A stretch of DNA of 64,000 nucleotides from contig SMLU01000002.1 of NCBI GenBank assembly GCA_007859745.1, positions 364,942 through 428,941 on the forward strand. The letters run 5' to 3'. A program made the translations under genes and the position numbers. Numbering within the stretch: position 1 is the stretch's first letter; the number at the start of each line of letters is the position of its first letter. This DNA comes from Phycisphaerae bacterium RAS1 (GTDB lineage: Bacteria > Planctomycetota > Phycisphaerae > UBA1845 > Fen-1342). Shown here in pieces: positions 23,101 to 54,576 of the stretch. The notes under the pieces are model-generated. The model made no database searches. It saw only the letters and a program-made list of their open reading frames with translations, and was not told the DNA's origin.

Positions 23101-25211
23101 GCAATGGCCTCGGGCGAAGTTGCTCCGCCGGAAACCGCCGACCATGCGACGCCATTCCATCGCGCAACGTTGGCGGCAGGCTGCCCGCCGGCCGTCGTAA
23201 ACGGGCCCACGCAATAGAGCGACTCGTTGTAGACCGCCATGCCGGAGACGGTACCGGGTGTGCCCTGATACTGAATCCCCGCTCCTAATGGCGACCACGA
23301 GACGCCATTCCAGCGTGCGATGCTGTTGGCGGCAGTTCCCCCCGCCGTCGAAAACCGCCCTCCAGCGTAAAGTCCATCGCCGAACACAGCGAATGAACTC
23401 ACATACTCAGTGGGAGCACCGACGCCCGAGGCCAAAGCTGACCATGCGGCTCCGTCCCACGCCGCGATGTGGTTGGCCGGACCGCCACCGGCTGATGTGA
23501 ATTGGCCGCCGACGTGCAGTTTGCCACCGTACTCGGCTAGGACGTAACCACCGCCGCCGGCAAGTCCCGATCCGAGCGCCTGCCACGCCGCACCATCCCA
23601 GCGGGCGATCAGGTTTGCGGGCTGCCCTCCTGCGGTTGTGAAGGCACCTGTGACGAAAAGGTCGTCCCCAACGAGGAGGGCATGATTCGGCGCATTGTTC
23701 AATCCCTGGCCCAAGGCAGACCAGGCGTTCCCATCCCACTGCGCGATCCGATTTGCGGATACTCCGCCGACCGAAGAAAACGTCCCTCCCAAGTACACTT
23801 GCGAGGCGCCGGTGGACAGCATTGTGACGCCCTGACCGGCTGGCACGCCCGAAGAGAGCGCGTGCCACGCCGCGCCATCCCAGCGAGCGATCTGCCCGCA
23901 CAGCACTGGGCCCGCTGTATGGAAGTTGCCGGCGGCGTACACCCCGTTCGGCCCCGTGGCAAGCCGGTGGGCTCCATCGACGGCAAATCCCTGGCCATTT
24001 CCGATTCGCGACCAGTCTGTGCCAGTCCAGTAGGCGATTCCGATGGCTGCCAGGCTCCCGGCCGATTGGAAGCTCCCCGCGACCAAAAGTCCGCCGCTCA
24101 GCGGCTTCAGAGTGGACACTTCAGTTGTGCCCCCTTCCGATACGAGGATTCCATCAAGCGGAACGGCCGTCGTACCGTCCCAGGCAAACACAGCCTCGCC
24201 AGTAATCCAGTCGCCGCCGAAAAGATTCACGGCCGAAAACCATCCGCCCGCGTACAAGTTCCCACCGTAGCTCTCGAGCCGCTGAATGAATCCGAAGTTC
24301 GGTGTGAGAGAGTTTATTGTCGGATTCCACGTCGAACCATTCCAGCGGGCCAGCACATGCGCGCCGAAACTCGGAACCGTGGACATAAATGATCCACCCG
24401 CATACAAATCGTCGCCGAATGACTGAATCGAGAGCACCGTGTCGTTGCCCAATGGCCCGCTGAAATACCCCCCGACGGCGCTCCACGTAGCGCCATTCCA
24501 GCGAGCAACGTGCCATCGTTGAGTTCCACCGCTAATCCTCATTTTGCCGCAGACATGGAGCTCGTTGTTATGGACGCAAAGATCCGACAGCAGCTCGACG
24601 CCGCTGATGTTGGTTCCTACGGCGGCCCATGACGTCCCGTTCCATCGGGCAACCGACGCGGACACCCCTCCCGCTGTCGTGAAAGTGCCGCAGGCGTACA
24701 GCGAACCATTCCATGACAGCAGTTTCAGCACCGATCCGTTGGTCCCCGAGTCGACCGCGCTCCACGAGGCGCCGTTCCAGCGGACGATGTTCGACGCGGG
24801 CGAACCGAATTGACCGCCCGCGTAGAGCGTGCCGTTGTAGTCCGCCAGCGTACGCGCGCTGAAAGTGCTGCCGACTTGCGTCCAGGCGTCCCCGTCCCAC
24901 CTGGCCACACCGTTAGCCGAATCGGCGTGGCCCGCAACAAAAAGCTTCGGGCCGGACCCGTCATCGAACTCCACCGCGTCGTACACACTCCACGTTTGGT
25001 TCAGGCCGAACTGCGAGGACCAGGCAAGTTGGCAGTTCTGGGCGGCGGCGGGATGCGCGGCGTGCATCGCCGTCAGTGCGCCGGCGATACGTACCCAAAC
25101 AACGAAGTGCCGGACGACGAAACCATGAAGCGCAGCCACAACCGACCTCCGCACAGCGGTTTCGGCAATCATGCCAGCTTCGAGCGCGGGAAACTTCGAC
25201 CGGTAGTGCAT
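20118..25211 (-). CDS. Giant secreted propeller / FG-GAP protein with dockerin-like tail
   Basis: 1697 aa from ATG 25211 (GAGGAG seven bases upstream). An N-terminal signal-like segment ends AAHPAAAQ. Residues about 70-740 are propeller repeats (ARWDGxAWxxLGxG...LYAGGxF), paralogous to the IS-interrupted gene at 11156. Residues ~750-1180 form a beta-helical, autotransporter-passenger-like region with short Gly/Val repeats (LIVGGSGSASVNVSNGG). Residues ~1240-1620 hold FG-GAP/VCBS repeats with Ca-binding DLNSDGMDDIV loops. The C-terminus has two dockerin-like loops with VLDINPF. It is probably a surface or extracellular adhesion/matrix protein. No enzymatic motif is seen. Monocistronic. Confidence 0.85.
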   Translation of the reverse strand: MHYRSKFPALEAGMIAETAVRRSVVAALHGFVVRHFVVWVRIAGALTAMHAAHPAAAQNCQLAWSSQFGLNQTWSVYDAVEFDDGSGPKLFVAGHADSANGVARWDGDAWTQVGSTFSARTLADYNGTLYAGGQFGSPASNIVRWNGASWSAVDSGTNGSVLKLLSWNGSLYACGTFTTAGGVSASVARWNGTSWAAVGTNISGVELLSDLCVHNNELHVCGKMRISGGTQRWHVARWNGATWSAVGGYFSGPLGNDTVLSIQSFGDDLYAGGSFMSTVPSFGAHVLARWNGSTWNPTINSLTPNFGFIQRLESYGGNLYAGGWFSAVNLFGGDWITGEAVFAWDGTTAVPLDGILVSEGGTTEVSTLKPLSGGLLVAGSFQSAGSLAAIGIAYWTGTDWSRIGNGQGFAVDGAHRLATGPNGVYAAGNFHTAGPVLCGQIARWDGAAWHALSSGVPAGQGVTMLSTGASQVYLGGTFSSVGGVSANRIAQWDGNAWSALGQGLNNAPNHALLVGDDLFVTGAFTTAGGQPANLIARWDGAAWQALGSGLAGGGGYVLAEYGGKLHVGGQFTSAGGGPANHIAAWDGAAWSALASGVGAPTEYVSSFAVFGDGLYAGGRFSTAGGTAANSIARWNGVSWSPLGAGIQYQGTPGTVSGMAVYNESLYCVGPFTTAGGQPAANVARWNGVAWSAVSGGATSPEAIAVFGGRAYVAGGPLTSGGGIPASGITSFTDPLRSLWIAPTGGQFDLPGNWQCSLAPTAVDPVLFDNTLAGYPNSVFTVTLVNDAASLALLVRTDTVTVNLSNRNFTLTAPPLDGYTALVVGALGTPGIDARLKVVNTQGLPRSLGCGSMVVADVGGCTGRVTVQGPTAELAATGPTQIGKRGQGFLLAQSGADVSLSHDVILGAIAGAAGDMTADGVGSVVEYGRPGGLMTIGDAGSAALRVLNGGQLVSVASIETMQIASQPASSGGATLSGPATVWLNTGSNFVVGGGGTATLRVEAGAQLLTDTSNQLLVARDAGSSGTVTVTGPGSRWLEQNQSLIVGGSGSASVNVSNGGVIELPSLELVVQRTGVLEGDGAVSGDVTNLGEVRPRDPESAAGVGTLSVAGSYRQLGPPPGGGAEQSGRLIAAVAGANPEQVGKLAVTGPAELGGGLFVNLINNFDPPAGQPLSVPLVSAAAFDPAHPRFDVAFFPGITGSRFLKLSYPSALAGGEARGGDILLAVADLAGQIDVTQPQSAGVLGVPNAVAVGDLNSDGMDDIVLTAPDAANPTSAPGSVFVLLTAFDGGGAYAPTTAQYTVGVEPAAVAVGQLDGSAGIDLAVANAGDDNVTILTNNGGGVFSSAGNVAVGNQPRGVCIGDFDQANGNDIVVALDGDDNILTDDGVALFMHNAPNGIIFVPLPGGVRPTAPRPRIPDPFDPDGDKDLDLGVIGGGTQGAVNVYVNNGMAGGAFDFLPGRVDAPVGRGPVQLVHGDLNQSGGDDIATINQFDGTVSVLVNTSSGSNQVSFAPAVDLPVRANPTPGQPDTAAAARSITVLDLDQDNDLDLVLLAENEASDAVARILRNDLSGGQLAFAPATDLDAGTAPLLLAAADLNADTRDDLVVIDDQTALAALRGGAPGRVDVRLNAPAPAVVPGDLNCDGAANVLDINPFVLALSNPAAYQQQYPGCPLANGDVNVDGNVDVLDINPFVALLAGG

Positions 25212-25422
25212 GCACAGACTCCTCACAGTCGCGTCGGCAACACTCTGGGAACGAACAGGAACCGCGCGTGACACGCTGCGATTATTCTAACGTCCGAGAA
25301 CGAACACCCGAAGCGAATAATCAAGATGGGGGGAAGAACCGCCGCCCTCGCCGGTACGGATTTGCGTCGCCGCTCAGCGTGAGCGGCCTACGCCGCAGCC
25401 GACGAACGCGAAGGAGAGACCG

Positions 25423-25816: not shown

Positions 25817-26389
25817 TCACTCTCCCTCCCCGAACTGCTCCCGCATCGCCTCCTTCAGCCGCTGCGTCACCTTCCACTTCAGCTTGTAAAGCTGGTTCGG
25901 AGCCAGCCCGAACTTCGCGCAGGTGTCGTCAACCGACGCGTCGGCGATGACGTGCATGTGAAACGCGTCGTACTCCTCCGGCCGCAGCTCGCGGCGGACC
26001 TGCTCCAGGCAGTGCCGCAGGTGCTCCTGCGTCCAGATGCGCTCGAACTCCTGGTCCGGCCCGTTGTCGTCGGCTACGCCGGCGAAGGCGGCGGTGTCGG
26101 CCTGCCCCTCGCGGCGCTTGGCCCACAGGTTTCGGATGTGGTTGTTGACGATCGTCCGCAGCCATGACCGAAAGCGGCCGCGCGAGGCGTCGTATTCGAA
26201 GCCGCGCACGTGCGTGACGAGGGCCGCCATGCAGTGCTGCACGACGTCGTCCACGTCCGCCGCGTCCAGACCGCGGGCGCGGGCGTAGCGGGTCAGGATC
26301 GGGCGGTAGATCGAGTCGAACTGCCGCCAGGCGTCGGCGTCGGCGACGTTCTTGACGCGGGCCAGGATACTGAGGCGCGTGGTTTCCAT
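25817..26389 (-). CDS. ECF-type RNA polymerase sigma factor
   Basis: 190 aa from ATG 26389. Region 2 is visible as WRQFDSIYRPILTRYARARG, then DVDDVVQHCMAALVTHV and FRSWLRTIVNNHIRNLW, which contains the -10-recognising helix. Region 4 is recognisable as LRPEEYDAFHMHVIADASV plus DTCAKFGLAPNQLYKLKWKV. It belongs to the planctomycetal ECF group whose genes lie beside Ser/Thr kinases; a kinase gene follows 800 bp away on the other strand. No anti-sigma gene with a zinc-finger is visible at this locus. Upstream in-frame codons to 26524 are non-homologous. The C-terminus ends in a Glu-rich tail. The cognate promoter is unknown. Confidence 0.88.
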   Translation of the reverse strand: METTRLSILARVKNVADADAWRQFDSIYRPILTRYARARGLDAADVDDVVQHCMAALVTHVRGFEYDASRGRFRSWLRTIVNNHIRNLWAKRREGQADTAAFAGVADDNGPDQEFERIWTQEHLRHCLEQVRRELRPEEYDAFHMHVIADASVDDTCAKFGLAPNQLYKLKWKVTQRLKEAMREQFGEGE

Positions 26390-26575
26390 GATCCCAGAAC
26401 GACGGCCGCCGGTCGATGCGGAGAACCGACATGCTCCGAACGAGCGAATCCTAGCGGAAAGGAGAGGCACAACGGAAGAAGCCGACATCGCGGCTGTACG
26501 GGTTGTCGACGCCAATCGCAGCATGTTCGGGTGTGTGGCCCGACATCCCGGGATGGCGTCGTGAGAGGTGAAGTC

Positions 26576-27025: not shown

Positions 27026-27169
27026 TACCGAGCAAGCGGCGTGGCAGGCGGCCTGCGAATACGCGGATCGGAGGACGGGGTCGATCCGCTCGCAGGGCGC
27101 GTCAAGTCTCGGAAAAGGCCCCGGGACGCCTGCCGCGGAGCGCATTCTGCGGCAGGCGATACCGCTATA

Positions 27170-29767
27170 ATGTCCACGGTCCATCGGCTATTCCGAAGGG
27201 ACGTCGCGTTGGCTGATCAGAATCCAAATGCCAGTCGATCTTTCGCTGCGACCGGCGCATCACCGCCACGCGGCGACGACCTGCCAACCGCGCCAGCCGC
27301 CGGCAACACGCCCGGCGATCTTGTTCCCGACCAACTCGAACGCGTCCGCGTCCTCGTCGGCGACGAGATGAAGGAGATCGGTCCCTATCGCGTCCTCAAC
27401 CCGCTCGGCCGCGGCGGAATGGGGACCGTGCTCCTGGCGATCCGCGAAGGCGACCAGTTCCATAAACGCGTCGCCATCAAGCTCATGCGCCGCGGCGTCG
27501 ACACCGCTGACATCCTCCAGCGATTCGCCGTTGAACGACAGGTTCTGGCCGGACTAAACCACCCGAACATCGCGCGGATGCTCGACGCAGGAGAGACCGC
27601 AGATGGCCGGCCCTACCTCGTCATGGAGTACATCGACGGCCAGCCGATCGACCGCTACTGCGACGACGCCGGCCTGACGATCGACGCACGCCTGCAGCTC
27701 TTCCGCAAGGTTTGTCACGCCGTGCACTTCGCGCACCAGCATCTGATCGTCCACCGCGACCTCAAGCCATCGAACATCCTCGTCGGCGCCGACGGCGAGC
27801 CGAAACTGCTCGACTTCGGCATCGCCAAAATCCTGAATCCGGAACTGCTCCAGATCAGCGTCGCGACCGGTCCTGAGCTGCGGCTGATGACGCCGGAATA
27901 CGCCAGCCCGGAGCAGGTGCAGGGCAAGCCGATCAGCACGCCCAGCGACATCTACTCGCTCGGCGTGTTGCTTTTCGAGCTGCTGACCGGACGGCGGCCC
28001 TATCGCTTTTCGACGCGGCTGCACGACGAGCTTGTCCGCGTGATCGCCGAGATCGAGCCGGAGCGGCCCAGTGACGTGGTCGCCCAGACAACCGAAATCC
28101 GCGCCAGCGACGGCGCCTCGCGCACCATCACGCCGCTGGACATCGCCAAGCCGCGCAGCACGGCCCCGCAGCGGCTGCGCAAGCAGCTCAGCGGCGATGT
28201 GGACAACATCGTCCTCAAGGCCATGCACAAGCTGGCGCGGCGGCGCTACGCGTCGGCACAGGAGATGGGTGAGGACATCGCCCGCCACCTAAGCGGAATG
28301 CCGGTCATCGCCCGCCCGGATACGCTCGGGTATCGCGCCGCCAAGTTCGTCCGGCGGCATCGCACAGCCGTGGTTGCGACGGGAGCGGTCGCCGCGACGT
28401 TGATTGTGGGCGTCGCAGTTACAGCCTGGCAGGCACAAGTCGCTCGACAGGAGCGCGACAACGCCATCCGCGAGCGCGCGCGGGCCGAGCGACGCTATGA
28501 GCAGACGTTGAAAGTCGCGCGGACGTTCCGCGATCAGCTCGAACCGGCGCTGCGCGCCGCCGAAGGCGCGGTGAGCGTGCGGGCCGCGCTGCTGCAGGCC
28601 GGCCGAGCCGGTCTGGAACTCATGCAGACGGAGCTCGCCGACGATCCGAACATGCAGCGCGAGTTGGCGCAGACTTACACCCGGCTGGCCGCCGCCGTTG
28701 GGGGCGTGCACGGCAGCAGCCAGGGCGATTCCGCGGCCGCCGATGGGCTGTTCCGCGCGGCGCTCACGCTCTGGGATCAGCTCGCGCAACGCGCTCCCGG
28801 CGACCGCGACGTGAAGCTCGCCCGAGCGCATCTGCATCTCCAACTGAGCCAGCTTGCATCACGAGCCGGCAAACCAGGCGATGCGCCCCTGCTCGCCGAG
28901 CGGGCGCTCGAAATGGCGCGCGACTTGTGCGACTCGCCGCGCTCCAGCCCAGCGGAGCGGCGTGTGCTTGCCTCGGCCTTGGCGCAGCACGCGGATCTGG
29001 AAGCCAGAAACCCGGCCGCGCGGGCACGCGCGGCGCAGGAGCTGCAGGAATCGCTCGATCTGCGCCAGGCGCAGGCCGAACAGGATCCGGAAGACATGCA
29101 GGCGCAGCGTGACCTCTCCGTCGGGCACATGGACTTGGCCCGCTTTCACCGAACCGCCGGAACGCCGGAAACGGCGGCCGAGGCGCTGCGCGAAGTTGAG
29201 TCGGCCATCGCGATTCGCCAGAGACTTCTGGACGCGGACCCGGATGGCGGCAGAGCAGAGCGTGACCTGCTGGTGGCGCTGGAGGGCAGGTGCGATGCGC
29301 TGAGCGCACTGGGTCGTTCCCAGGACGTTGTCAGCACCCGCGCCAACATCGTGGATCGGTTCGAACAGATGTGCCGGGCCAGCCCGGACGACGGCCGGCT
29401 GTCCGTCGATCTGGTTCGTGCGCTGACGGAACTGGCGGCCGCCGAGATCGAAATCGGCCGCGCCGAAGTCGCCGGGCAACACGCCGACCACGCGCTGCGC
29501 ATCATCCAGCCGCTCTTCGACCGCGACCCGGGCCAGCACGAGCGTCGCTGGAGACTGGCCTTGGCGCTGGCGACGGCCGGCGATGCGTGCGCAGCGCGGA
29601 ACGACGCAATCGGAGCAGAGGCCCTCTATGACAAGGCAGTGAAGCATCTTCAGGTGCTGACGCGCGGCGACCCGAGTAACCCTCGCTACGCGGTTGAGGC
29701 GGATGCCGTCCGGGCGCGCTGGGCGAACGCCCAGGAGTCGTCGCGGGCGGGCGAGCGCTCTCGATGA
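27170..29767 (+). CDS. Receptor-type Ser/Thr protein kinase with TPR-like extracytoplasmic part
   Basis: 865 aa. Kinase domain at about residues 72-400: Gly loop GRGGMGTV (80-87), VAIKLM with Lys104, HRDLKPSNILV catalytic loop, LLDFGIAKIL with DFG, and TPEYASPEQ. One membrane helix (TAVVATGAVAATLIVGVAVTAW) lies near 435. The rest, about 430 residues, is Ala/Leu/Arg-rich alpha-helical TPR-like repeats. This Hanks-type kinase resembles PknB-class planctomycetal proteins adjacent to ECF sigma genes. Signal input and substrate are unknown. The start is ATG 27170, with only a weak ribosome-binding site, and a GCCTGCCGC / GCGGCAGGC hairpin at 27128-27157 lies in the leader, 12 bases upstream. Confidence 0.87.
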   Translation: MSTVHRLFRRDVALADQNPNASRSFAATGASPPRGDDLPTAPAAGNTPGDLVPDQLERVRVLVGDEMKEIGPYRVLNPLGRGGMGTVLLAIREGDQFHKRVAIKLMRRGVDTADILQRFAVERQVLAGLNHPNIARMLDAGETADGRPYLVMEYIDGQPIDRYCDDAGLTIDARLQLFRKVCHAVHFAHQHLIVHRDLKPSNILVGADGEPKLLDFGIAKILNPELLQISVATGPELRLMTPEYASPEQVQGKPISTPSDIYSLGVLLFELLTGRRPYRFSTRLHDELVRVIAEIEPERPSDVVAQTTEIRASDGASRTITPLDIAKPRSTAPQRLRKQLSGDVDNIVLKAMHKLARRRYASAQEMGEDIARHLSGMPVIARPDTLGYRAAKFVRRHRTAVVATGAVAATLIVGVAVTAWQAQVARQERDNAIRERARAERRYEQTLKVARTFRDQLEPALRAAEGAVSVRAALLQAGRAGLELMQTELADDPNMQRELAQTYTRLAAAVGGVHGSSQGDSAAADGLFRAALTLWDQLAQRAPGDRDVKLARAHLHLQLSQLASRAGKPGDAPLLAERALEMARDLCDSPRSSPAERRVLASALAQHADLEARNPAARARAAQELQESLDLRQAQAEQDPEDMQAQRDLSVGHMDLARFHRTAGTPETAAEALREVESAIAIRQRLLDADPDGGRAERDLLVALEGRCDALSALGRSQDVVSTRANIVDRFEQMCRASPDDGRLSVDLVRALTELAAAEIEIGRAEVAGQHADHALRIIQPLFDRDPGQHERRWRLALALATAGDACAARNDAIGAEALYDKAVKHLQVLTRGDPSNPRYAVEADAVRARWANAQESSRAGERSR

Positions 29768-45037: not shown

Positions 45038-47021
45038 GTGGAGTCGAGGTGTGGCGCGGTGGCCGCGACGCGACGCCGTTTCCACACCCCGCTCGTCGAA
45101 CCGGACAGGCGGATTTCCCGCATCCGGCTCTCGGACCAGACCTCACGCTTTCGCCCACGGCAAGCTGCGAGCCAGCGGCACCAGCCGTACCAGTCCCAAC
45201 GTCTTGTTAAGGTAGGAATCGGGCCAGCGGGTAATGGCCCGGTTCGGCTGTTGATGCTTGCGTCGTAACCAGTGGCGCAGCCGAAGACGCACGTAGCGGT
45301 CGATCGCCCGATACGCCGATCCCACCGGACCCAGACAGAAATAGTTGGCCCAGCCGGTCAGCATCGGGTTCAGTTTCGCCACGCGGTCCTCGGCCGTCTT
45401 CAGCGTCCAGCGCGGTTCGGTCGCCTCGCGGATCGCTTCGCACAGCCGGCGAATCCGCTTCTGCGACGGGCGCGTGCCGATGTAGGCCCGCCCCGTCTTG
45501 GGCGACCAACACCGCCCCAGCGTGTAACCCAGGAAGTCAAACGATTCCGCCGGTACGCGGCGAACCCGCGTCTTGGCCTCGTTCACCGTCAGACGCAGCG
45601 TCGTCATCATGTTCCGCATGGCCGCGGCCGCTTTCTCGGCCGTGTCGCGGCAGCAGATCACAAAATCGTCTGCATAATTGACGATGTACGCCTTCAGACG
45701 CCGTTCGTGGCCCAACACCTTCCAGCCCAGCACGAAGCGACGCATATAGAGGTTGGCCAGCAGCGGCGAGATCGGTGCGCCTTGCGGCGTACCGCGATGC
45801 TCGTCCCGAGCGCGGCACGTTCGCACCTTCCGCCCATGCTCGTCTTCTTCTTCGACCGGCATTTCCAGCCACATCTTGATCAGATGCAGCATGTGTCGAT
45901 CGCTGATCCGACGAGCCACCGACTTCATCAGCTCGGTGTGCGGAATGCTGTCGAAGTATCCGCTCAGGTCCGCGTCCACCACCTCCGTATGCCCCGCGTT
46001 CAGCAACCGATGGACGTGGCAAACCGCGTCCAACGCGCTGCGCTGCGGCCGGTAGGCGTACTGCTCCGGTTGCAGGTCGGCCTCGAAGATCGGTTCGAGG
46101 ACGATCACCGCCGCCGTCTGAACCACGCGGTCGCGGATCGTGGGAATCCCCAGCGGACGTTGTTTGCCATCCGCTTTGGGAATCCACACCCGCCGTACCG
46201 CCTGCGGCTGATACGTCTTGCTCCTGAGTTCCTGCGCCAATTCACCCAACCAGCGTTCCACGCCGTACGCCTCGATGTCCTCGAAGCTCTGGCCGTCCAC
46301 GCCCGGCGCGCCGCGCTTCGCGCGGCACGCCTGATACGCATGCGCCAGAATATCTTCGCGATACAGCTTGTCGTACAGCAGGTAGAACCGGTACGTGGGC
46401 GCTGCCTTCGCTTTGGCGTGCAGCGCCGTTTGCAACTTCCGGACCTTCTCTGGAGGCTCCAGGCTCATCGCCAATCTCCACGTCCTCGTCGCGTTCGGCA
46501 CTTGTCTTGAACCAACGCCCCTTCCCTCTACCGGCGTTACCCGGCTTCAACGGTACTACGGGCGTTTCCGCCACCTCGCGTGGCCCGGCCTGTCCCTCAC
46601 GGGCGTCCGGTTGCGGGTTCCCAAACCCGCACGACGCGAGGCTTCCCGTGTTGCGTCGTGTTCCCTCTGTCGACATGCCGTCACCCATACCCCGGCGGAA
46701 CCGCTGGACCCTTCGCTCGATGCCCTGCTCTCGCCTGGGCCAGGCTTGCATCCAGCAGCGGCGGCCTTCCCGGTGTTGAAGCCCGGTCGGCTTCCGCATC
46801 GCTTGTTTCGGGGCCTGCTCGGCGTTCACGTGCGTGGCGTTACTTCGCTCCACGCGCTGTTACGGCCTGCCGACTCGCGGAGTCGCCAACGCGACCCTTT
46901 CCATCGAAGGCTTCGACGGCTTCGTCACCTCCACCGCCGCTCCGATTGCTACCGGCTGGAGCGAACCCTTGCCGGGTGGGCTTATACTCCCACTGAGAAC
47001 ACGCGCCTTTGCACGGCGCAC
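45038..47021 (-). mobile_element. Group II intron (about 1984 nt) with ORF in domain IV
   Basis: The 5' end GTGCGCC at 47021 matches the GUGYG consensus. Domain V is clear at 45092-45132, with core starting GAGCCGGATGCGGGAAATCC (45130 downwards) and ending GTTC. A domain VI-like stem (GGTGTGG / CCACACC) leads to a 3' end CTCGACTCCAC near 45038. The maturase stop lies 10 nt before domain V. The intron begins 13 bases after the stop of the kinase gene at 47034 and does not interrupt a gene. The 3' boundary is a pattern-based estimate, within a base or two. RNA-folding would be needed to assign the class. Confidence 0.85.
45143..46468 (-). CDS. ltrA: Group II intron reverse transcriptase/maturase
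   Basis: 441 aa from ATG 46468 (GGAG seven bases upstream; an ATG at 46501 is an alternative). RT blocks: KRGAPGVDGQSFEDIEAYG, VDADLSGYFDSIPHTELM, GTPQGAPISPLLANLYM and the catalytic YADD in AYIVNYADDFVICCRD, then FDFLGYTLGR. The C-terminal maturase (GIIM) domain reads NPMLTGWANYFCLGPVGSAY followed by VRLRLRHWLRRKHQ. No HNH endonuclease domain is visible. It helps splice its own intron and copies it into new DNA sites. All catalytic residues are present, so the intron should be mobile. Confidence 0.92.
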   Translation of the reverse strand: MSLEPPEKVRKLQTALHAKAKAAPTYRFYLLYDKLYREDILAHAYQACRAKRGAPGVDGQSFEDIEAYGVERWLGELAQELRSKTYQPQAVRRVWIPKADGKQRPLGIPTIRDRVVQTAAVIVLEPIFEADLQPEQYAYRPQRSALDAVCHVHRLLNAGHTEVVDADLSGYFDSIPHTELMKSVARRISDRHMLHLIKMWLEMPVEEEDEHGRKVRTCRARDEHRGTPQGAPISPLLANLYMRRFVLGWKVLGHERRLKAYIVNYADDFVICCRDTAEKAAAAMRNMMTTLRLTVNEAKTRVRRVPAESFDFLGYTLGRCWSPKTGRAYIGTRPSQKRIRRLCEAIREATEPRWTLKTAEDRVAKLNPMLTGWANYFCLGPVGSAYRAIDRYVRLRLRHWLRRKHQQPNRAITRWPDSYLNKTLGLVRLVPLARSLPWAKA

Positions 47022-47033
47022 CTCAACGAGCTG

Positions 47034-50000
47034 CTATGGTCGCGGCTCTGATCGGCTATCGAGGCGCTCGTCGGGCACGCGCGTCGCATCCGGCGGAACA
47101 TCCAGGCGGGCGCGCTGATACTTGAGGTTTCCGGCGATGTGCCGCTCGAAGTAGGACAAATCGAGAATCGCCACCGTGCGGTCCGCGCCGCACGTCGCCA
47201 GGTAGCGGCTGTCCGGTGAAATCGCCACTGAGAGGATCATCTCGGAGTGCTGCGAGATTTTGGCCAGGTTACGTCCGGTCGCCGCGTCCCACAACATCAC
47301 AACGCCGCCGCGGTCGCCGGAGGCCAGCAGCGCGCCATCCGGACTGTAGGCCAGCGCAAAAACGCTCTGCTGATGAGCCTCCAGCCTGCGCGGCGGCTGC
47401 CCGGCGTCCAGCCGCGTCAGGGTGATCGCACCGTCGTCACTGCCGGAAGCGAATTCGCGGCTGTCCGGGTGAAAAGCCAGGGCGCGGGCCGCAACGGTCG
47501 TCAGCCGCGGCGCAAGCGTCTCCGCATCCCACACCGTCCCCCCGAACGGCCCGGCGCAGGCCAGCCAGCGCCCGTCCGGCGAGAAGCGCACCGCGGCGAG
47601 GCGGCCGGCCTGGCCGCCCAGTTCCGCGGTGCAGCGTCCCTGCCGCCAATTCCAGACGCGAACCGCGCGGTCATCCGACGCGACGGCGATGCGCTGATCG
47701 TCCGGACTGATCGCCACGTCGTTGCATTTTCCCGATTCCGCGGTCCTCAACTCGCACACGTCACGGACCGACTCGCGTTCCCAGACCCGCGCGCTCCCGT
47801 CGTAACTGGCGGAGGCGACGTAGCGCCCGTCCCGCGACACAGCCACGCCCGACACTTCGGCGGCATGGCCGGCATACGAGCGGACAGGCGCACCATGGCG
47901 TGGGTCGATCGCGAAAACGCGGTTCGGCGCGCCGCTGCACAGCAACTCTCGCCCGTCCGGCGTGAACGCCAGTGCCATGAGGCTCATCGGCTGCTCGGCT
48001 GTGCGGACCGTCGCCGCCGGACTGACCTCCCAGAGCTTGACCACGCCGCTGGGCGTGGTCGACATCAGCCGGTCGCCGCTGCGGTCGAAGCTGAGCGCAT
48101 CCGCCCAGTTCCAGTTTCCGGCCAGCTCCCGCAGCGGCGAGCAATCAGCGGTTCGGTAGAGCCGGATGATTCGGTCACCGGTGCACGTCGCCAGCAGACC
48201 GGCGTCCAGGCTGAATGCACTGACTTGCAGGCCGCCGCCGCGCAGAACGAACTCGCAGACGACGCGCTGCTCGACAATGTCGATCAGTCGAATTCCGCCC
48301 GCCTTGCGGGGAATCAGTTCGCCCGGGACGGCGATCAGCCGCCCGTCGCTGGATGTTGCGGGTTTGCCGGGAGCAATGCCGAGTTGCGGAAACGCGGGCG
48401 ACACCTCGCGCCAGACGCCGTCGAGAGGGTCCCACAGCCCGGCTCGATACGCCTGATCGACCGCCAGGATCGACCGGCCGGCGCCCAGGAAGCCCACGTA
48501 TCGCAACGGGGCGTTGAGCCAGTCGGGCAGCGGCACCGACGCCGCCGCGCCGGATTCGCGCCTGTCATGAATCTCGATCCGCGGCGTCCCTATGACGACG
48601 ACCGCGCGCGTCGAATCCGGCGAAACATCAAAACGCCGCAACCCGGGGCGCAACGGATCGTCCGAGAGGTCGCCCCGGTACGACAGCTCCCCTGTCGCGA
48701 GATTCCACGCGCGCAATTGCGTCTCGGTGGCGGCCCAGGCGAATTCCGCACCGCGCACGACCGTGGGTGCGCCGGTCCTGTCGCCGTGGTCTTCCAGTTG
48801 AAGCGACCGGCTGCGCGCCAGCGTCGCGATGGACCAGCGCTCGACGCGGCCGGTTCGCGTGACCAGGACGATTTCCGATTCATCCTCGGACCACGCCGCC
48901 GCCGCACGCTGGTTGGAGCCGCGCGGCAACGTCGCCAGGCACGGATGCTGCGAGTACAGCTCCCACAGCGCCCAGCGCGCCCGCCGGGCGATCGGCGTCT
49001 CGGCCGCGTGCGTCAGGTACTCGCGCCACAGCAGGCTCTCCGCGAGCGGAATGTTGCCCGTCTCGGTCATCAGCCGGCCGCGCTCGATAATGCTGTCGCT
49101 CAGCGTCAGCGCCAGGCGCTGCGCGTTCTCGTCGGCCCGCTGCCGCTGCAGGTCCACGCGACGCGCCAGAAGCGCCATGCTAACGGCGAAAACCAGAATC
49201 AGCGCCCCTGCCGCGGCTGCCGCGATCACGGCCGTGCGGTGCTTCTGAGCGGATTTCCGCAGCACATACCAGGCGCTGTCGCGCTTGGCGTCGATCGGCT
49301 CGCCGGCCAGGTAACGCCGCAGGTCGCGGGCCAGGTCGCCGGCCGACTGGTAGCGCCGTTCCGGCTCTTTGGAAAGCGCCTTGAGCACGATCGTATCCAG
49401 CTCGTCGTCCAACCCGCGCTGAACGGACGACGGACGCGGCGGATGCACTTCGCTGATGGCGCGGACGGCCTCGCTGATGGACTCGCCCAGCGGGTACGGC
49501 CGCCGCCCGGACAGCAGCTCGAAAAGCATCACTCCGAGCGAATACACGTCCGTCCGTACGTCAATCAGTTCCGGACGGCCGCGAAGCTGCTCCGGCGCCG
49601 CGTAGGCGAACGTGCCCATGAACTCGCCGCTCACGGTCATCGCGGCGGCCGGACCGGACGCCAGCGGATCGTCCGACAGGGCCTTCGCCAAACCGAAGTC
49701 GAGAACGTGCGGGACGCCGGCGTCATCCACCAGGAGGTTGGCCGGCTTCAGGTCACGATGCACGATGCCGCGCAGATGCGCCGCGCCGACGGCCTCGCAG
49801 ACTGTGGCGAACAGGGCGAGGCAGCGCTGCACCGGCGATTGCGGATGGCGGACCGGCCGTGGCGGGCCCGACTCCACACGCCGCGATCCGCAATCCGCAA
49901 TCCACGCGTCCAGCGGCCGGCCGTCGATGAATTCCATCGCGCAGTAGCGCCGCCCCTCGGGCGTCACGCCGCTGTCGAAGATCGTCACGATGTTCGGATG

Positions 50001-50447
50001 GTTCAGGCTGGCGACCAGCTCCACTTCGCGCTCGAAGCGCGCCCGGCGACGCGCGTCGTTCGGGCTGCCGCCGATCATCACCTTGAGCGCCACCGTCCGC
50101 TTCGTCGCCAGTTGCAGCGCCCGGTACACCACCCCCTGACCGCCGGCGCCGATGTCCGAGAGGATGCGATATCCCGGCACCGCATCGGCGAAACGATGAT
50201 CGCCCGCAGCGCGCCGGCCGCCGGCGGGCGAATCCGCCGGCGAGTCCGTCCCCGCGGCCTGTTCCGCGCCGCGCTTCAGGTGAGCCAGCAGCGTGTTGTT
50301 TCCGGAAATGCGCTCGCACCACGCAGTGCAGTCGGCGCACCCGGCCAGGTGCGACGCCAGCTCCTCGGCGCCCGGGTCCGCCGCGGCGCGGCCGGTGGCG
50401 CAGTAGCGCTCAAGCTCTTCGAGTGTCGGGCAGGATCGGTCGCTCAC
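47034..50447 (-). CDS. Zinc-finger / Ser-Thr kinase / WD40 protein coupled to an ECF sigma gene
   Basis: 1137 aa from GTG 50447, overlapping the sigma stop as GTGA. Residues 33-44 contain HLAGCADCTAWC, an anti-sigma-type HC zinc-finger pattern (HxxxCxxC plus Cys). The kinase domain is at about residues 93-375, with GAGGQGVV, VALKVM (Lys122), HRDLKPANLLV, LDFGLAKAL and FAYAAPEQL. A membrane helix (AVIAAAAAGALILVFAVSMALL) lies near 425. Residues about 540-1130 hold 12-14 WD40 repeats (e.g. VSRDGRYVASASYDGSARVW). It is the ECF-linked sensor kinase type known in planctomycetes. The intron lies 13 bases beyond its stop. Confidence 0.88.
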   Translation of the reverse strand: MSDRSCPTLEELERYCATGRAAADPGAEELASHLAGCADCTAWCERISGNNTLLAHLKRGAEQAAGTDSPADSPAGGRRAAGDHRFADAVPGYRILSDIGAGGQGVVYRALQLATKRTVALKVMIGGSPNDARRRARFEREVELVASLNHPNIVTIFDSGVTPEGRRYCAMEFIDGRPLDAWIADCGSRRVESGPPRPVRHPQSPVQRCLALFATVCEAVGAAHLRGIVHRDLKPANLLVDDAGVPHVLDFGLAKALSDDPLASGPAAAMTVSGEFMGTFAYAAPEQLRGRPELIDVRTDVYSLGVMLFELLSGRRPYPLGESISEAVRAISEVHPPRPSSVQRGLDDELDTIVLKALSKEPERRYQSAGDLARDLRRYLAGEPIDAKRDSAWYVLRKSAQKHRTAVIAAAAAGALILVFAVSMALLARRVDLQRQRADENAQRLALTLSDSIIERGRLMTETGNIPLAESLLWREYLTHAAETPIARRARWALWELYSQHPCLATLPRGSNQRAAAAWSEDESEIVLVTRTGRVERWSIATLARSRSLQLEDHGDRTGAPTVVRGAEFAWAATETQLRAWNLATGELSYRGDLSDDPLRPGLRRFDVSPDSTRAVVVIGTPRIEIHDRRESGAAASVPLPDWLNAPLRYVGFLGAGRSILAVDQAYRAGLWDPLDGVWREVSPAFPQLGIAPGKPATSSDGRLIAVPGELIPRKAGGIRLIDIVEQRVVCEFVLRGGGLQVSAFSLDAGLLATCTGDRIIRLYRTADCSPLRELAGNWNWADALSFDRSGDRLMSTTPSGVVKLWEVSPAATVRTAEQPMSLMALAFTPDGRELLCSGAPNRVFAIDPRHGAPVRSYAGHAAEVSGVAVSRDGRYVASASYDGSARVWERESVRDVCELRTAESGKCNDVAISPDDQRIAVASDDRAVRVWNWRQGRCTAELGGQAGRLAAVRFSPDGRWLACAGPFGGTVWDAETLAPRLTTVAARALAFHPDSREFASGSDDGAITLTRLDAGQPPRRLEAHQQSVFALAYSPDGALLASGDRGGVVMLWDAATGRNLAKISQHSEMILSVAISPDSRYLATCGADRTVAILDLSYFERHIAGNLKYQRARLDVPPDATRVPDERLDSRSEPRP

Positions 50448-51067
50448 GCAGTTCCGCGCTCGCCGGCGTCGTCGTACACCGATTCCAACTGCATTAGAAT
50501 CTCGCGCAGCCGTTCGGCTACGCGGTTCTTGGCCATGTAGACGTCCTGCGGCGTCATGCCCAGCTCGCTGGCGACATCGGCCGCCGACCGTTCGTGGAGC
50601 ACGAACCGCTCGAACGCCTGGATCGTCTTGTCGCTCGTGCGCGAGCTGCGGCGCAGCTCGTCCAGCGCGCGGCGCAGCAGCAACTGCGTTCGCTGCGCCT
50701 CCCACTCGGCCTCCAGCCACGCGTCGTCCGGCAGGGCCTCGATCGTGTCGATGTTGCCGTCGGCCCGCCGGCGGGCGCTCTGCTCTCGCGCGGCCAGGAC
50801 GCAGTGCTTGACGATGCCGATGATCCACGACCGCAGCCGCCCGCGCTGCCGCTCGTACTTTCCGTCGCGATAGTCGCGCACGAAGCGCAGCAGCGTCTCC
50901 TGCGCCACGTCGGCCGCCTCGTGCTCTCCCAGCCCCAGCCGCCGGGCGTACGCCAGGATCAGCGGTCGATACCGGCTGTCGAATTCCTGCCACACGTTGC
51001 CGTTGCCGGCGTCGTGCAGGCCGTCGAGCAGTACGCTGGTCGTAGTGGTCAGCGCCGGAAGCGCCAT
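50444..51067 (-). CDS. ECF-type sigma factor co-translated with the kinase
   Basis: 207 aa from ATG 51067. Region 2 shows YRPLILAYARRLGLGEHEAAD, DVAQETLLRFVRDYRDG and RGRLRSWIIGIVKH. Region 4 has a helix-turn-helix (AADVASELGMTPQDVYMAKNRV). The spacer from region 2 to 4 is long and acidic. It would recruit RNA polymerase to its own regulon. The TGA overlaps the kinase GTG, so the two are synthesised in fixed ratio; the kinase N-terminus carries a zinc-finger-like pattern that could hold the sigma. No -35/-10 sequence for it is recognisable. Upstream lies the 39-bp repeat array. Confidence 0.9.
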   Translation of the reverse strand: MALPALTTTTSVLLDGLHDAGNGNVWQEFDSRYRPLILAYARRLGLGEHEAADVAQETLLRFVRDYRDGKYERQRGRLRSWIIGIVKHCVLAAREQSARRRADGNIDTIEALPDDAWLEAEWEAQRTQLLLRRALDELRRSSRTSDKTIQAFERFVLHERSAADVASELGMTPQDVYMAKNRVAERLREILMQLESVYDDAGERGTA

Positions 51068-51191
51068 CGTCGAACACCCAGGCGGCAAGCGCCGTCGTCA
51101 AACATGCGAGGGGACGCCCTTGATGCTACTGAATCGCCGCCCGCCGATCCAGCTTGGCGCCGTGGGCCGACGTCCTCTTTCCGCCCTCTGT

Positions 51192-51365
51192 CCGAACCCG
51201 CCGCGCCAACCGGCGGGGTGACCGCTGTTTCCGAACCCGCCGCGCCAAGCGGCGGGGTGACCGCTGTTTCCGAACCCGCCGCGCCAAGCGGCGGGGTGAC
51301 CTTCATGGGCAGGTAACTCGCCCACACGCGGGACCTCACCCCGCCGCTTGGCGCGGCGGGTTCGG
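51192..51365. repeat. 39-bp tandem repeat with an inverted copy
   Basis: Units at 51192, 51231 and 51270 have period 39 and contain CGAACCCGCCGCGCCAAGCG followed by GCGGGGTGACCGC. An inverted copy follows at about 51333-51365 (ACCTCACCCCGCCGCTTGGC). Together they can fold into a long hairpin between the divergent sigma gene and the dockerin-like gene. Nothing else is visible up to 51648. Confidence 0.85.
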
Positions 51366-51648
51366 ACAGCACGCAGTTCCAGCGCCGCTCGGCCGCAACG
51401 CGTGATTGAAAACGCGCGGCTTCCTGCGAAGACGCACGGCGCTCTGCGGCGGCTGGCGGAACTTCACCCGATTTTTCAATTTCATCAATATCGCGACAAA
51501 CGCATGAAATACCGGTGAAAACTGTGAGACCAGAGGCTTTCGTTTGCATGGCGTGTGAGGCCTGCATGTGCGTGCGGCCGAAGCGGGCGCGTGACCCGCC
51601 GGCCGCCGCCAACGGTCCTGCGATGCTGAAGCCAACAAGGAGAACGCC

Positions 51649-54576
51649 ATGAAACGCATCATCCGCAATCGACGAACCACCGCCGCCCTGCTCGCCGCTT
51701 TCGCCGGCGTCTCGCCCGCTTTCGCCGTCCCGCCGGCCAATGACGACTGTCCGAACGCCTTCGCCGTCGGCGAAGGCGTCTACAACGGCACGATGCAGGA
51801 CGCCACCAGCGACGGCCCCGCCGCGTGCGGTCAGCCCGACACGGCAGATGTCTGGTACCTGTACCTCGCGTCTGCAACCGGCGTCGTGGCGCTCGACACC
51901 TGCGTGGGCGCGTCCTTCGACACGACAATCTCGGTGTGGAGCGGCTGCGGCGGCGTAATGCTGGCCTGCAATGACGATGCCTGCGGCACCGGCTCGTCGG
52001 TCTCGCTGGCCGCCAGCGCCGGCGAGTCGTACCTGGTTCGCATCGCGTGCGCCAGCCCGATTCTGAATCCGGGAGATTTCGTCTTTCGCATCGCATCGGG
52101 CGACGCCAGCGGCGCCTGCTGCATCGTGGAAGTGTGCTCGGAAATGACCTCCGCCGCCTGCAACGCCGCCGGCGGCACGTACGCCGGCGACGGCACGACC
52201 TGCGGCAGCGTTTCGTGCGAGCCGGCGTTCGACGGCTGGGCCTTCGGACTTCCGCACGCGGCGCTGGGAAACGCCGAACTCCACCGGGTCGGTGACGCCC
52301 TTCAGGCCGCGGGGTGCTGCCTCGGTTCCACCGGCAACGACGGCGTGCGCATCACTCACGAGGACGCCGACTCCTTCATCGTCTACCGACTGCTCGAAGC
52401 GATTCCGGCCGGTGGAGTGGTCGAGATCACGTCGCGCGGCGAAGTGGACGGCACGCCGGACCAGCCGATCGCGACGTTCGGCGTGACGCGCGGCGAAGGC
52501 GAGTCATTTCTCGAGGTCCTCTGGGATAATAGCTCCAACGCTACATACCAGTACCAGGTCTACAACGACGGACAGCTCGTCGGCGCCCTGCCCGGAGGCG
52601 ACCTGCGCGTCACCGGCGAGCTCTCCGGATTCGCCTCCGGCAATCCCGGCGACGTCGATCCGATGCTGCCCAACATCGGCTGCTGCGGCTGGTACAGCGG
52701 CACGTACGCCATGCGCCCCTGCAAGTGGTGCCATCCGAGCGGCGGGCTGCCGATCTACAGCAATACCCAGCCGGCCGGTTACATCTGGTGCGGCTGCGCC
52801 CCGGACATCTACTTCCCCTGGTGGCGCTTCATGTCCGCGGAGCAGGCGGTCCTCACCGTCCAGTTGGTCGACGGCGGACCGATCCTGAACGGCGACAGCA
52901 TCGTGATCGTCGCAACCGATGCGCCGCCTGTCGGAGCGCTGAGCGCGACTGAAATCACCGCCAGCGGCGTTGCCTCGTTCACCATTGCCGGCGAGGCCGT
53001 CGGCGCGCACGGCCGCTCCATTCGCGCCACCGGCGAAGCGCGGCTTCAGACGACGGACGCCAGCGGCGACGGCATCCCGGACGTGGTCATTAGCGGAATC
53101 GGCGGCACGGGCCAGGACGGCGTCGAGTGGATCACGACCCCGACGCCACGCGAGGAACTCTCCTTGCTCGACTTCGACATGACCTCATCGAACGCCGTTA
53201 TCGACGTGGAGGCGCTCGGCGAAGTGGATGGCGTTCCGGATCAGGTAATCTCGGCAATTCACCTGGCTCGGCAAGGCGCCAGCATTGCGTTCGCGCCCCT
53301 CGACGAGCCGGGCCAGACGTACACCGTTCGCGTGTTGCACGATGACCAAGTCGTCACGGAAGTGGACACGGACACCGGCGAAGGGTTTACGTTCACCGGT
53401 CCGGGCTGGCTCGCGGTCGGAAAGTGCTGCCCGCGCGACCGCAACGGCCGGAGAAGCGAGCTGCGCTACGCCGCGCCGACGCAGATCACGATCGTCGGCG
53501 GTCCGACGGTCATCGGCGACGAGGTACAGATCGACACGCATGACGCCCCCGGCCTGTCTCGGTCGTTCGGCGACATCACCGCCGTCAGCGTCCGCGGCGC
53601 AAACGTCGATTCGCTGGCCATCACCGGTATCTGGCGGCCGATGCCCCCGTCGGTCGATACCTTTGACCAGTACCCCGACGGGACGGACATCAACGGCGTG
53701 GGCATGTACTCGGGCTGGGGCGATGACGTTACGCTGCCCGCGATCGTCAGCGATGACCAGGCGCACAGCGGCGCGAACTCGCTGAGCATCAGCGACAACG
53801 CCGACATTGTAGCGATCATCCTCCAACATGAATGGGTTGCGGACATAGCCCCCGGCGCGACGGAGACCGGCGAACGCCTCGTGCCGATCAGTCAGCCGGC
53901 GCATGAGTCAGGCGACGCCAGGTCCGCGTCCCGCAGCTTCAACCCCGAGCGCGTGTGGTCCACGTGGATGTACGTCCCGACCAATTTCCAGTCCGCCTGC
54001 GACGGCCTCGGCAACTGCGGCTCGTACGTGATCCTGATGAATCGCTACGAAGCCAACGGGCCGAAGAACTGGTCGGTGCAGTTGCACGCCGACTCGAACA
54101 CCAACCTGTTCATCCGCGACGGCCTGACGCCTGACGCGTTGCCGCTCGTCCGCGGCAGATGGGTCGAGCTGGTCGTGCAGATCAACTTCGACGAGGACGC
54201 GTTCCGCGTCTTCTACGACGGCCAGGAACTCGGCCAGGAAGCCTCGTGGATGAACGACCTGCCCGGCGATCCCGGCGGCGCCCTGCCGCAGCGCGAACTG
54301 GCGGCGGCGGACTTCTTCGCCAACGGCTCGTCGGTCGTCTACTACGACGATGTCCGCCTGGAGGACTACGCTCCGCCGGCCGTCCTTGGCGACCTGAACT
54401 GCGACGGCACCGCGGACATCCTGGACATCAACCCGTTCATCCTGGCTCTGGGCAACCCGGCTGGTTACCAGGCGCAGTTCCCCGACTGCGACATCCTGCT
54501 GGGCGACATCAACGGCGACGGCGAGCTGAACGTGCTCGACATCAACCCCTTCGTCGCCCTGCTGTCGGGAATGTAG
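51649..54576 (+). CDS. Large secreted protein with dockerin-like tail
   Basis: 975 aa from ATG 51649 (AAGGAG six bases upstream). Signal peptide RTTAALLAAFAGVSPAFA. A pre-peptidase-like N-terminal module (PPANDDCPNAFAVGEGVYNG) occurs, as in the lipoprotein at 38053. A Cys-rich middle includes GCCGWYSGTYAMRPCKWC. Several beta domains follow, then a LamG/jelly-roll-like module (FDQYPDGTDINGVGMYSG ... FRVFYDGQELG). The tail has two dockerin-like loops (GDLNCDGTADILDINPF, DINGDGELNVLDINPF). No catalytic site is recognisable. It is probably a surface or matrix-binding protein, lying upstream of the pseudopilin. Confidence 0.8.
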   Translation: MKRIIRNRRTTAALLAAFAGVSPAFAVPPANDDCPNAFAVGEGVYNGTMQDATSDGPAACGQPDTADVWYLYLASATGVVALDTCVGASFDTTISVWSGCGGVMLACNDDACGTGSSVSLAASAGESYLVRIACASPILNPGDFVFRIASGDASGACCIVEVCSEMTSAACNAAGGTYAGDGTTCGSVSCEPAFDGWAFGLPHAALGNAELHRVGDALQAAGCCLGSTGNDGVRITHEDADSFIVYRLLEAIPAGGVVEITSRGEVDGTPDQPIATFGVTRGEGESFLEVLWDNSSNATYQYQVYNDGQLVGALPGGDLRVTGELSGFASGNPGDVDPMLPNIGCCGWYSGTYAMRPCKWCHPSGGLPIYSNTQPAGYIWCGCAPDIYFPWWRFMSAEQAVLTVQLVDGGPILNGDSIVIVATDAPPVGALSATEITASGVASFTIAGEAVGAHGRSIRATGEARLQTTDASGDGIPDVVISGIGGTGQDGVEWITTPTPREELSLLDFDMTSSNAVIDVEALGEVDGVPDQVISAIHLARQGASIAFAPLDEPGQTYTVRVLHDDQVVTEVDTDTGEGFTFTGPGWLAVGKCCPRDRNGRRSELRYAAPTQITIVGGPTVIGDEVQIDTHDAPGLSRSFGDITAVSVRGANVDSLAITGIWRPMPPSVDTFDQYPDGTDINGVGMYSGWGDDVTLPAIVSDDQAHSGANSLSISDNADIVAIILQHEWVADIAPGATETGERLVPISQPAHESGDARSASRSFNPERVWSTWMYVPTNFQSACDGLGNCGSYVILMNRYEANGPKNWSVQLHADSNTNLFIRDGLTPDALPLVRGRWVELVVQINFDEDAFRVFYDGQELGQEASWMNDLPGDPGGALPQRELAAADFFANGSSVVYYDDVRLEDYAPPAVLGDLNCDGTADILDINPFILALGNPAGYQAQFPDCDILLGDINGDGELNVLDINPFVALLSGM

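Follow-up and report, generated by a model that had tools for sequence, protein, structure and literature searches.

Two adjacent genes on the minus strand of a 64,000-nucleotide stretch of the Phycisphaerae bacterium RAS1 genome (contig SMLU01000002.1, positions 364,942 to 428,941; hereafter the window) encode an extracytoplasmic function (ECF) sigma factor and a receptor kinase. By translation, the sigma gene (50444..51067) specifies 207 amino acids from an ATG start at 51067 to a TGA stop at 50446-50444, and the kinase gene (47034..50447) specifies 1137 amino acids from a GTG start at 50447-50445 to a stop at 47034. The kinase opens with an anti-sigma-type zinc module (residues 1-64; 50256..50447), delimited from an alignment, a profile search of the PDB and an AlphaFold2 model. 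The module is followed by a Hanks-type Ser/Thr kinase domain (49347..50171; Pfam Pkinase, 141.8 bits; VALK, HRDLKPAN, DFG and APEQ motifs), a single predicted transmembrane helix (residues 406-426; 49170..49232; hydropathy maximum 2.48) and a WD40 beta-propeller part (approximate limits 47133..48815; Pfam WD40, 169 bits, plus beta-propeller families). An earlier note on this DNA had described a kinase, a membrane helix and WD40 parts behind an HxxxCxxC motif like that of anti-sigma zinc-binding domains. The domain matches confirm this order, and the motif is borne out by the invariant ligands and PDB profile matches given below.

The N-terminus of the kinase reads SCPTLEELERYC...ELASHLAGCADC and contains four predicted zinc ligands, namely C6 (codon 50430..50432) and H33-x3-C37-x2-C40 (codons 50349..50351, 50337..50339 and 50328..50330). 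Against Pfam zf-HC2 (PF13490), the module scored 14.6-15.2 bits, below the gathering cut-off of 22.2, so the reality of the motif was settled through its conservation among relatives. Sigma relatives were collected from 60 related genomes, a genome-collection scan and an order-wide profile search (74 of 114 genomes), which together gave 127 nonredundant family sigmas; the window genome itself is 5.5 Mb, and its relatives are mostly Phycisphaerae/Phycisphaerales metagenome assemblies of Planctomycetota. In the stretches fetched, a kinase frame was found downstream of 114 of the 127, and all 114 of these nonredundant kinases, encoded on the same strand as their sigma, had Hx3Cx2C before the kinase domain. 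The upstream Cys was present in 112 of the 114, with L188 having His at this position and L209 looking degenerate. Across 43 aligned N-termini with a mean identity of 29%, the only invariant columns were C6, H33, C37 and C40, and zf-HC2 matched the modules of 21 of the 43 at E values up to 0.1 (best 1.1e-8). Loss of the cysteines in orthologues, which the earlier note had named as grounds for abandoning its proposal, was thus not seen.

Thirteen family sigmas had no kinase match, and three of these keep the module. The contig of L163 ends directly after the zinc module, and in L210 the module is followed by a diverged kinase. In L226 the module forms a small gene of its own that overlaps the sigma stop, with a separate kinase gene ~120 nt downstream, although this is a metagenome assembly and the split may be an assembly fault. 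The remaining sigmas had no module in the available sequence.

The module is related to zinc anti-sigma factors. When its profile was compared with 177,635 PDB sequences, six matches were obtained up to E = 10: DdvA (9e-4), RsiW (1e-3), RslA (3hug_B, 1.1e-3), ChrR twice (0.38) and one CHAT-domain protein. Besides this relation to proven members, the module has the Hx3Cx2C motif over helices 2 and 3 and the fourth, N-terminal ligand of class I zinc anti-sigma domains (ASDI/ZAS), and it is encoded beside an ECF sigma, as 114 of the 127 family sigmas have the module-kinase as the next gene. The AlphaFold2 model of the module showed three helices (residues 9-18, 25-36 and 38-63), of which the third is long. 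ChrR, RsiW, RslA and DdvA share with the window protein the Hx3Cx2C motif, the profile similarity and a gene position directly behind a sigma gene; they differ from it in output, which in the window protein is a kinase, a membrane helix and WD40 repeats and in these factors a cupin or nothing more than a membrane tail.

A phylum-wide search of 294 genomes with the module profile recovered proteins of two kinds. Most of the module-kinases among them are encoded immediately behind a sigma gene; the others are short proteins (L241, L249, L251, L256 and L258) with the module and a hydrophobic segment, again encoded right after a sigma gene, a layout as in classical membrane anti-sigma factors. In the published geometry of the anti-sigma domain, helix 1 touches sigma4 (PMC7406223). 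In the module, an acidic residue (95/112 with Glu or Asp) directly follows the conserved helix 1 Leu and may lie near a specificity position named in that paper; the placement comes from reading the RseA sequence and serves as a lead only.

The sigma factor has region 2 and region 4 and no region 3, as expected of the ECF type. Sigma70_r2 scored 36.3 bits (Pfam cut-off 24), region 4 was weak at 13.7 bits (cut-off 25.7), and TIGR02937 scored 47.8 bits, over its cut-off of 42.9. The top PDB match of the sigma family profile was 2q1z_A, which is sigmaE in the sigmaE-ChrR complex. An acidic DxxD motif in sigma2.2, E50-A-A-D53 (50909..50920), corresponds to the RNA polymerase contact that is absent from ECF43 sigmas. 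Among 128 family sequences, position 50 was Asp or Glu in 98% and position 53 in 100%, so the exchange of DAED for uncharged residues with a Thr/Ser acceptor, the hallmark of ECF43/EcfP-type sigmas, is not found in this family. With DxxD intact, the sigma should therefore be able to engage RNA polymerase in unphosphorylated form, and restraint should be required. Before helix 1, the Thr at position 9 (codon 51041-51043) was conserved in all 128 sequences, and position 11 was Thr or Ser in 95%. By sequence, T9 is a candidate phosphosite or helix cap.

The stop of the sigma gene and the start of the kinase gene share the four nucleotides GTGA (50444..50447), as the earlier note had correctly placed them. 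Its further claim that this overlap fixes the ratio of the two proteins did not stand, because GTGA alone is insufficient for such a conclusion and the 112 sigma-kinase junctions compared comprised 25 with a 4-nt overlap, one with a 1-nt overlap, 55 with a short gap and 31 with a longer gap. The overlap is therefore not a rule of the family, and it points to coupling in the window genome without a fixed ratio.

Planctomycetota have many ECF-kinase pairs, and the type of sigma sorts with the type of kinase. In the ECF43 sigmas EcfP and EcfK, which lack the acidic DAED, the neighbouring kinase phosphorylates a Thr at this site and thereby activates the sigma (PMC8999054, PMC13147305). Sigmas of PF07638 from the same order as the window genome have QPTA or QATA (Q[PA]TA) at the DAED site, and their Thr aligns with the phosphorylated Thr of EcfP STTA. 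Thirty of the 37 PF07638 sigmas had a kinase downstream, and Hx3Cx2C was found in none of these 30 kinases. Judged by their sequences, these sigmas (L260-L288 and L001-L008; many per genome and usually before a kinase) are probably phospho-activated in the manner of EcfP. The contrast between 114/114 and 0/30 by sigma type is strong (Fisher p ~1e-31, a value that ignores shared descent), and at least two ECF-kinase wirings therefore exist in these genomes. We propose a sorting rule for Planctomycetota ECF-kinase pairs, by which kinases with the zinc module accompany sigmas that keep the acidic motif, and sigmas without the motif are accompanied by module-less kinases. In the window genome, two other sigmas that are unrelated to the family (L049 and L073) also precede module-kinases, and both keep the acidic motif.

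The catalytic part of the kinase is intact. The catalytic Lys, HRDxKxxN and DFG of Hanks-type Ser/Thr kinases are all present in the window protein (VALK119, HRDLKPAN230 and DFG250), and among 107 relatives VAIK was found in 106, HRDxKxxN in 103 and DFG in 106. Behind the kinase domain, one membrane helix was predicted in most full-length relatives and none in a few, and the WD40 part is expected to lie outside the cytoplasm. On a constant core of module, kinase and helix, the outer part differs among relatives, being WD40 in the window kinase, L087, L092 and L104, TPR in L088, L090, L093, L100 and L103, and FGE-sulfatase in L107 and L109. Such exchange of outer parts, with the clamp-kinase core unchanged, suggests that the receptors form a modular family.

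On balance, we favour the reading that the kinase is a membrane receptor that holds its co-encoded sigma through the zinc module and releases it upon kinase signalling. Since the pairing is kept in all 114 gene pairs, with the family sigmas joined exclusively to module-kinases, a single protein is suggested both to hold the sigma and to decide on its release. At rest, the cytoplasmic zinc module would bind the co-encoded sigma, most likely via sigma4, and this binding would tether the sigma, whose acidic contact is intact, to the membrane and deny it access to RNA polymerase. A cue sensed by the outer WD40 part would activate the adjoining kinase, which would phosphorylate the module or the linker (in cis, or in trans between the partners of a dimer), the bound sigma, or both. 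Phosphorylation would then release the sigma, and its genes would be transcribed. The earlier note had likewise proposed that one polypeptide could hold the sigma, sense an outside signal and control release by phosphorylation, a proposal that the sequences support in part. The narrower version, in which a zinc module lacking helix 4 holds a competent sigma and the same polypeptide phosphorylates its own module or linker for release, is held more tentatively, at slightly under an even chance.

Several observations weigh against this receptor reading. In class I anti-sigma domains, a fourth helix blocks sigma2 (PMC7406223), and no such helix set off by a flexible linker was visible in the AlphaFold2 models, although their third helix is long and the sigma-module fusion stops short of the kinase; this also sets the window protein apart from ChrR, RsiW, RslA and DdvA. 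The distance from the end of helix 3 to the kinase had a median of 22 residues among relatives. A Foldseek structure search with the module alone returned no matches. Though akin to the zinc anti-sigma bundle, the module, with no visible helix 4, falls short of a full class I anti-sigma domain in this respect; as modelled, it could act as a minimal clamp on sigma4 or as a dock. In the window genome, the 1.6 kb upstream of two of the seven module-kinases contain no sigma gene, and many module-less kinases adjoin acidic-motif sigmas, so the sorting rule is one-way and a third wiring exists. Sigma neighbours within this genome alone were found for 5 of 7 module-kinases and 16 of 41 other kinases (p 0.21), which is not significant because other ECF-kinase pairs are common. 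The sequences show the gene and domain order, the invariant ligands, the kinship with zinc anti-sigma factors, the intact DxxD and kinase motifs and the exclusive pairing; zinc binding, sigma binding, inhibition, the orientation in the membrane, the signal, phosphorylation and release are inferred.

Across relatives, the tree correlation between sigma and module (0.42; partial 0.32) was significant and not above that between sigma and kinase (0.50), which reflects joint inheritance and not contact; it was accordingly dropped as a sign of sigma-module contact. For column covariation in 107 pairs, the top sigma-module score was 6.9 against shuffled maxima of up to 6.6, and 28 of the top 50 were sigma4 positions, with relatedness left in. 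An AlphaFold2 model (L016) of the sigma and module, read across the natural stop as a single chain, had a pLDDT of 84 and a pTM of 0.63, with each part folding well. The sigma2-sigma4 arrangement in this model deviated by 11-19 A (root-mean-square deviation) from anti-sigma-bound sigmas and by 22-27 A from polymerase-bound ones; its being nearer to the anti-sigma-bound form is a hint from a model that has no sigma-alone control.

The chief alternative is that the zinc module docks the sigma to the kinase, which then activates the sigma by phosphorylation at a site other than DAED, modelled on PknT acting on EcfP and PknS on EcfK. By this analogy T9 would be the candidate site, and the strong conservation of the N-terminal Thr/Ser residues at positions 9 and 11, the apparent absence of a sigma2-blocking helix 4 from the module, and the direct action of ECF43 kinases on their sigmas (PMC8999054, PMC13147305) all speak for it. 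Nevertheless, we regard it as unlikely, as the DxxD motif, replaced by the phosphosite in ECF43, is intact in this family, the kinases that accompany Q[PA]TA sigmas in the order of the window genome do without the module (0/30), and T9 and T11 may be mere helix caps. If the module instead held the sigma as an ordinary membrane anti-sigma, release could come from regulated cleavage of the receptor, leaving the kinase with another job. Proteolytic release of membrane anti-sigmas is the commonest ECF control (PMC8103513), a single membrane helix is predicted in the receptor, and the module profile also matches the short membrane anti-sigma-like proteins in the phylum. We consider cleavage improbable, however, since the catalytic motifs of the kinase are kept in nearly all relatives and the module directly precedes the kinase in 114/114; no protease gene turned up, though none was searched for.

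Least probable of all, and in our judgement very unlikely, is that the module serves the kinase itself as a structural, redox or dimerisation element, with the sigma gene as a mere neighbour. The two module-kinases of the window genome without a nearby sigma and the co-evolution signal that does not exceed the sigma-kinase level would fit such a role. Against it stand the split of the motif by sigma type, the PDB relatives of the module, which are almost all anti-sigma factors, and the natural split in L226, which leaves the module with the sigma gene.

Among known systems, the nearest proven parallel to the favoured sigma-holding receptor is that of Mycobacterium tuberculosis, where the zinc anti-sigma RshA holds SigH less tightly once PknB has phosphorylated it (PMC4601284, PMC8999054). 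This system likewise comprises a Ser/Thr kinase, a ZAS anti-sigma and an ECF sigma, but it operates in trans, with PknB and RshA as separate, unlinked proteins, whereas the window kinase and zinc module form one polypeptide encoded directly behind the sigma. The pairs EcfP-PknT (Vibrio) and EcfK-PknS (Xanthomonas) of ECF43 also place an ECF sigma gene beside a membrane Ser/Thr kinase (PMC8999054, PMC13147305). They differ in that EcfP and EcfK lack DAED and need the phosphate, while in the window pair the sigma retains DxxD and the kinase carries a zinc module. Planctomycetota WD40/TPR Ser/Thr kinases have been described with the kinase inside, one membrane helix, and WD40, TPR or sulfatase-modifying-factor parts outside, as here (PMC11032199), and a text search of that survey found no mention of a zinc or anti-sigma part in these kinases. 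In the open literature, our search did not turn up a fusion of an anti-sigma module with a Ser/Thr kinase, though an earlier mention is possible.

The planctomycete groups ECF59, ECF61, ECF62 and ECF217 are listed as kinase-associated (PMC8999054), and they resemble the window pair by phylum and gene pairing. Outside ECF43, kinase-associated ECF groups have been noted to retain a motif like DAED and perhaps to act in another way, with their mechanism called unknown (PMC8999054). For one large family, the present pairing offers a concrete, testable answer, in which the kinase itself would contain the anti-sigma that seems to be missing. If true, this self-contained anti-sigma receptor kinase would differ both from the proteolysis of anti-sigmas and from the EcfP-type phosphorylation of a defective sigma, and control of this kind would span a Planctomycetota order beside the EcfP type.

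Other ECF-kinase arrangements are found nearby. A second ECF sigma gene in the window (25817-26524, minus strand; acidic motif DVDD) lies divergently beside a gene for a module-less kinase (27041-29767, plus strand). Elsewhere in the window genome, module-less kinases next to or near acidic-motif sigmas include those with a common N-terminal helix ..LIAAARRQ.. (L060, L069 and L077) and those with a common N-terminal helix ..ILAELRR.. (L064, L068 and L080). From their sequences, these short helices are perhaps another type of sigma-binding segment.

No conserved neighbour was found that could be named as a target gene of the sigma. The gene divergent from the sigma gene (51649-54576, plus strand) encodes a large secreted protein that could be a sigma target, with only scattered relatives near other pairs; it has a dockerin-like tail (GDLNCDG...DINPF...) in common with a second large secreted protein of the window (20118-25274, minus strand). 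Between the sigma gene and this divergent gene, in the region upstream of the sigma (51180-51370), a GC-rich unit, CCGAACCCGCCGCGCCAAGCGGCGGGGTGACC, occurs three times in direct orientation with almost no differences and once inverted, and is possibly a mobile repeat or a promoter-region element. On the other side of the pair, a group II intron (45038-46995, minus strand; Rfam group-II-D1D4-4 and Intron_gpII) begins ~39 bp behind the kinase stop and carries an open reading frame for a reverse transcriptase (45143-46501).

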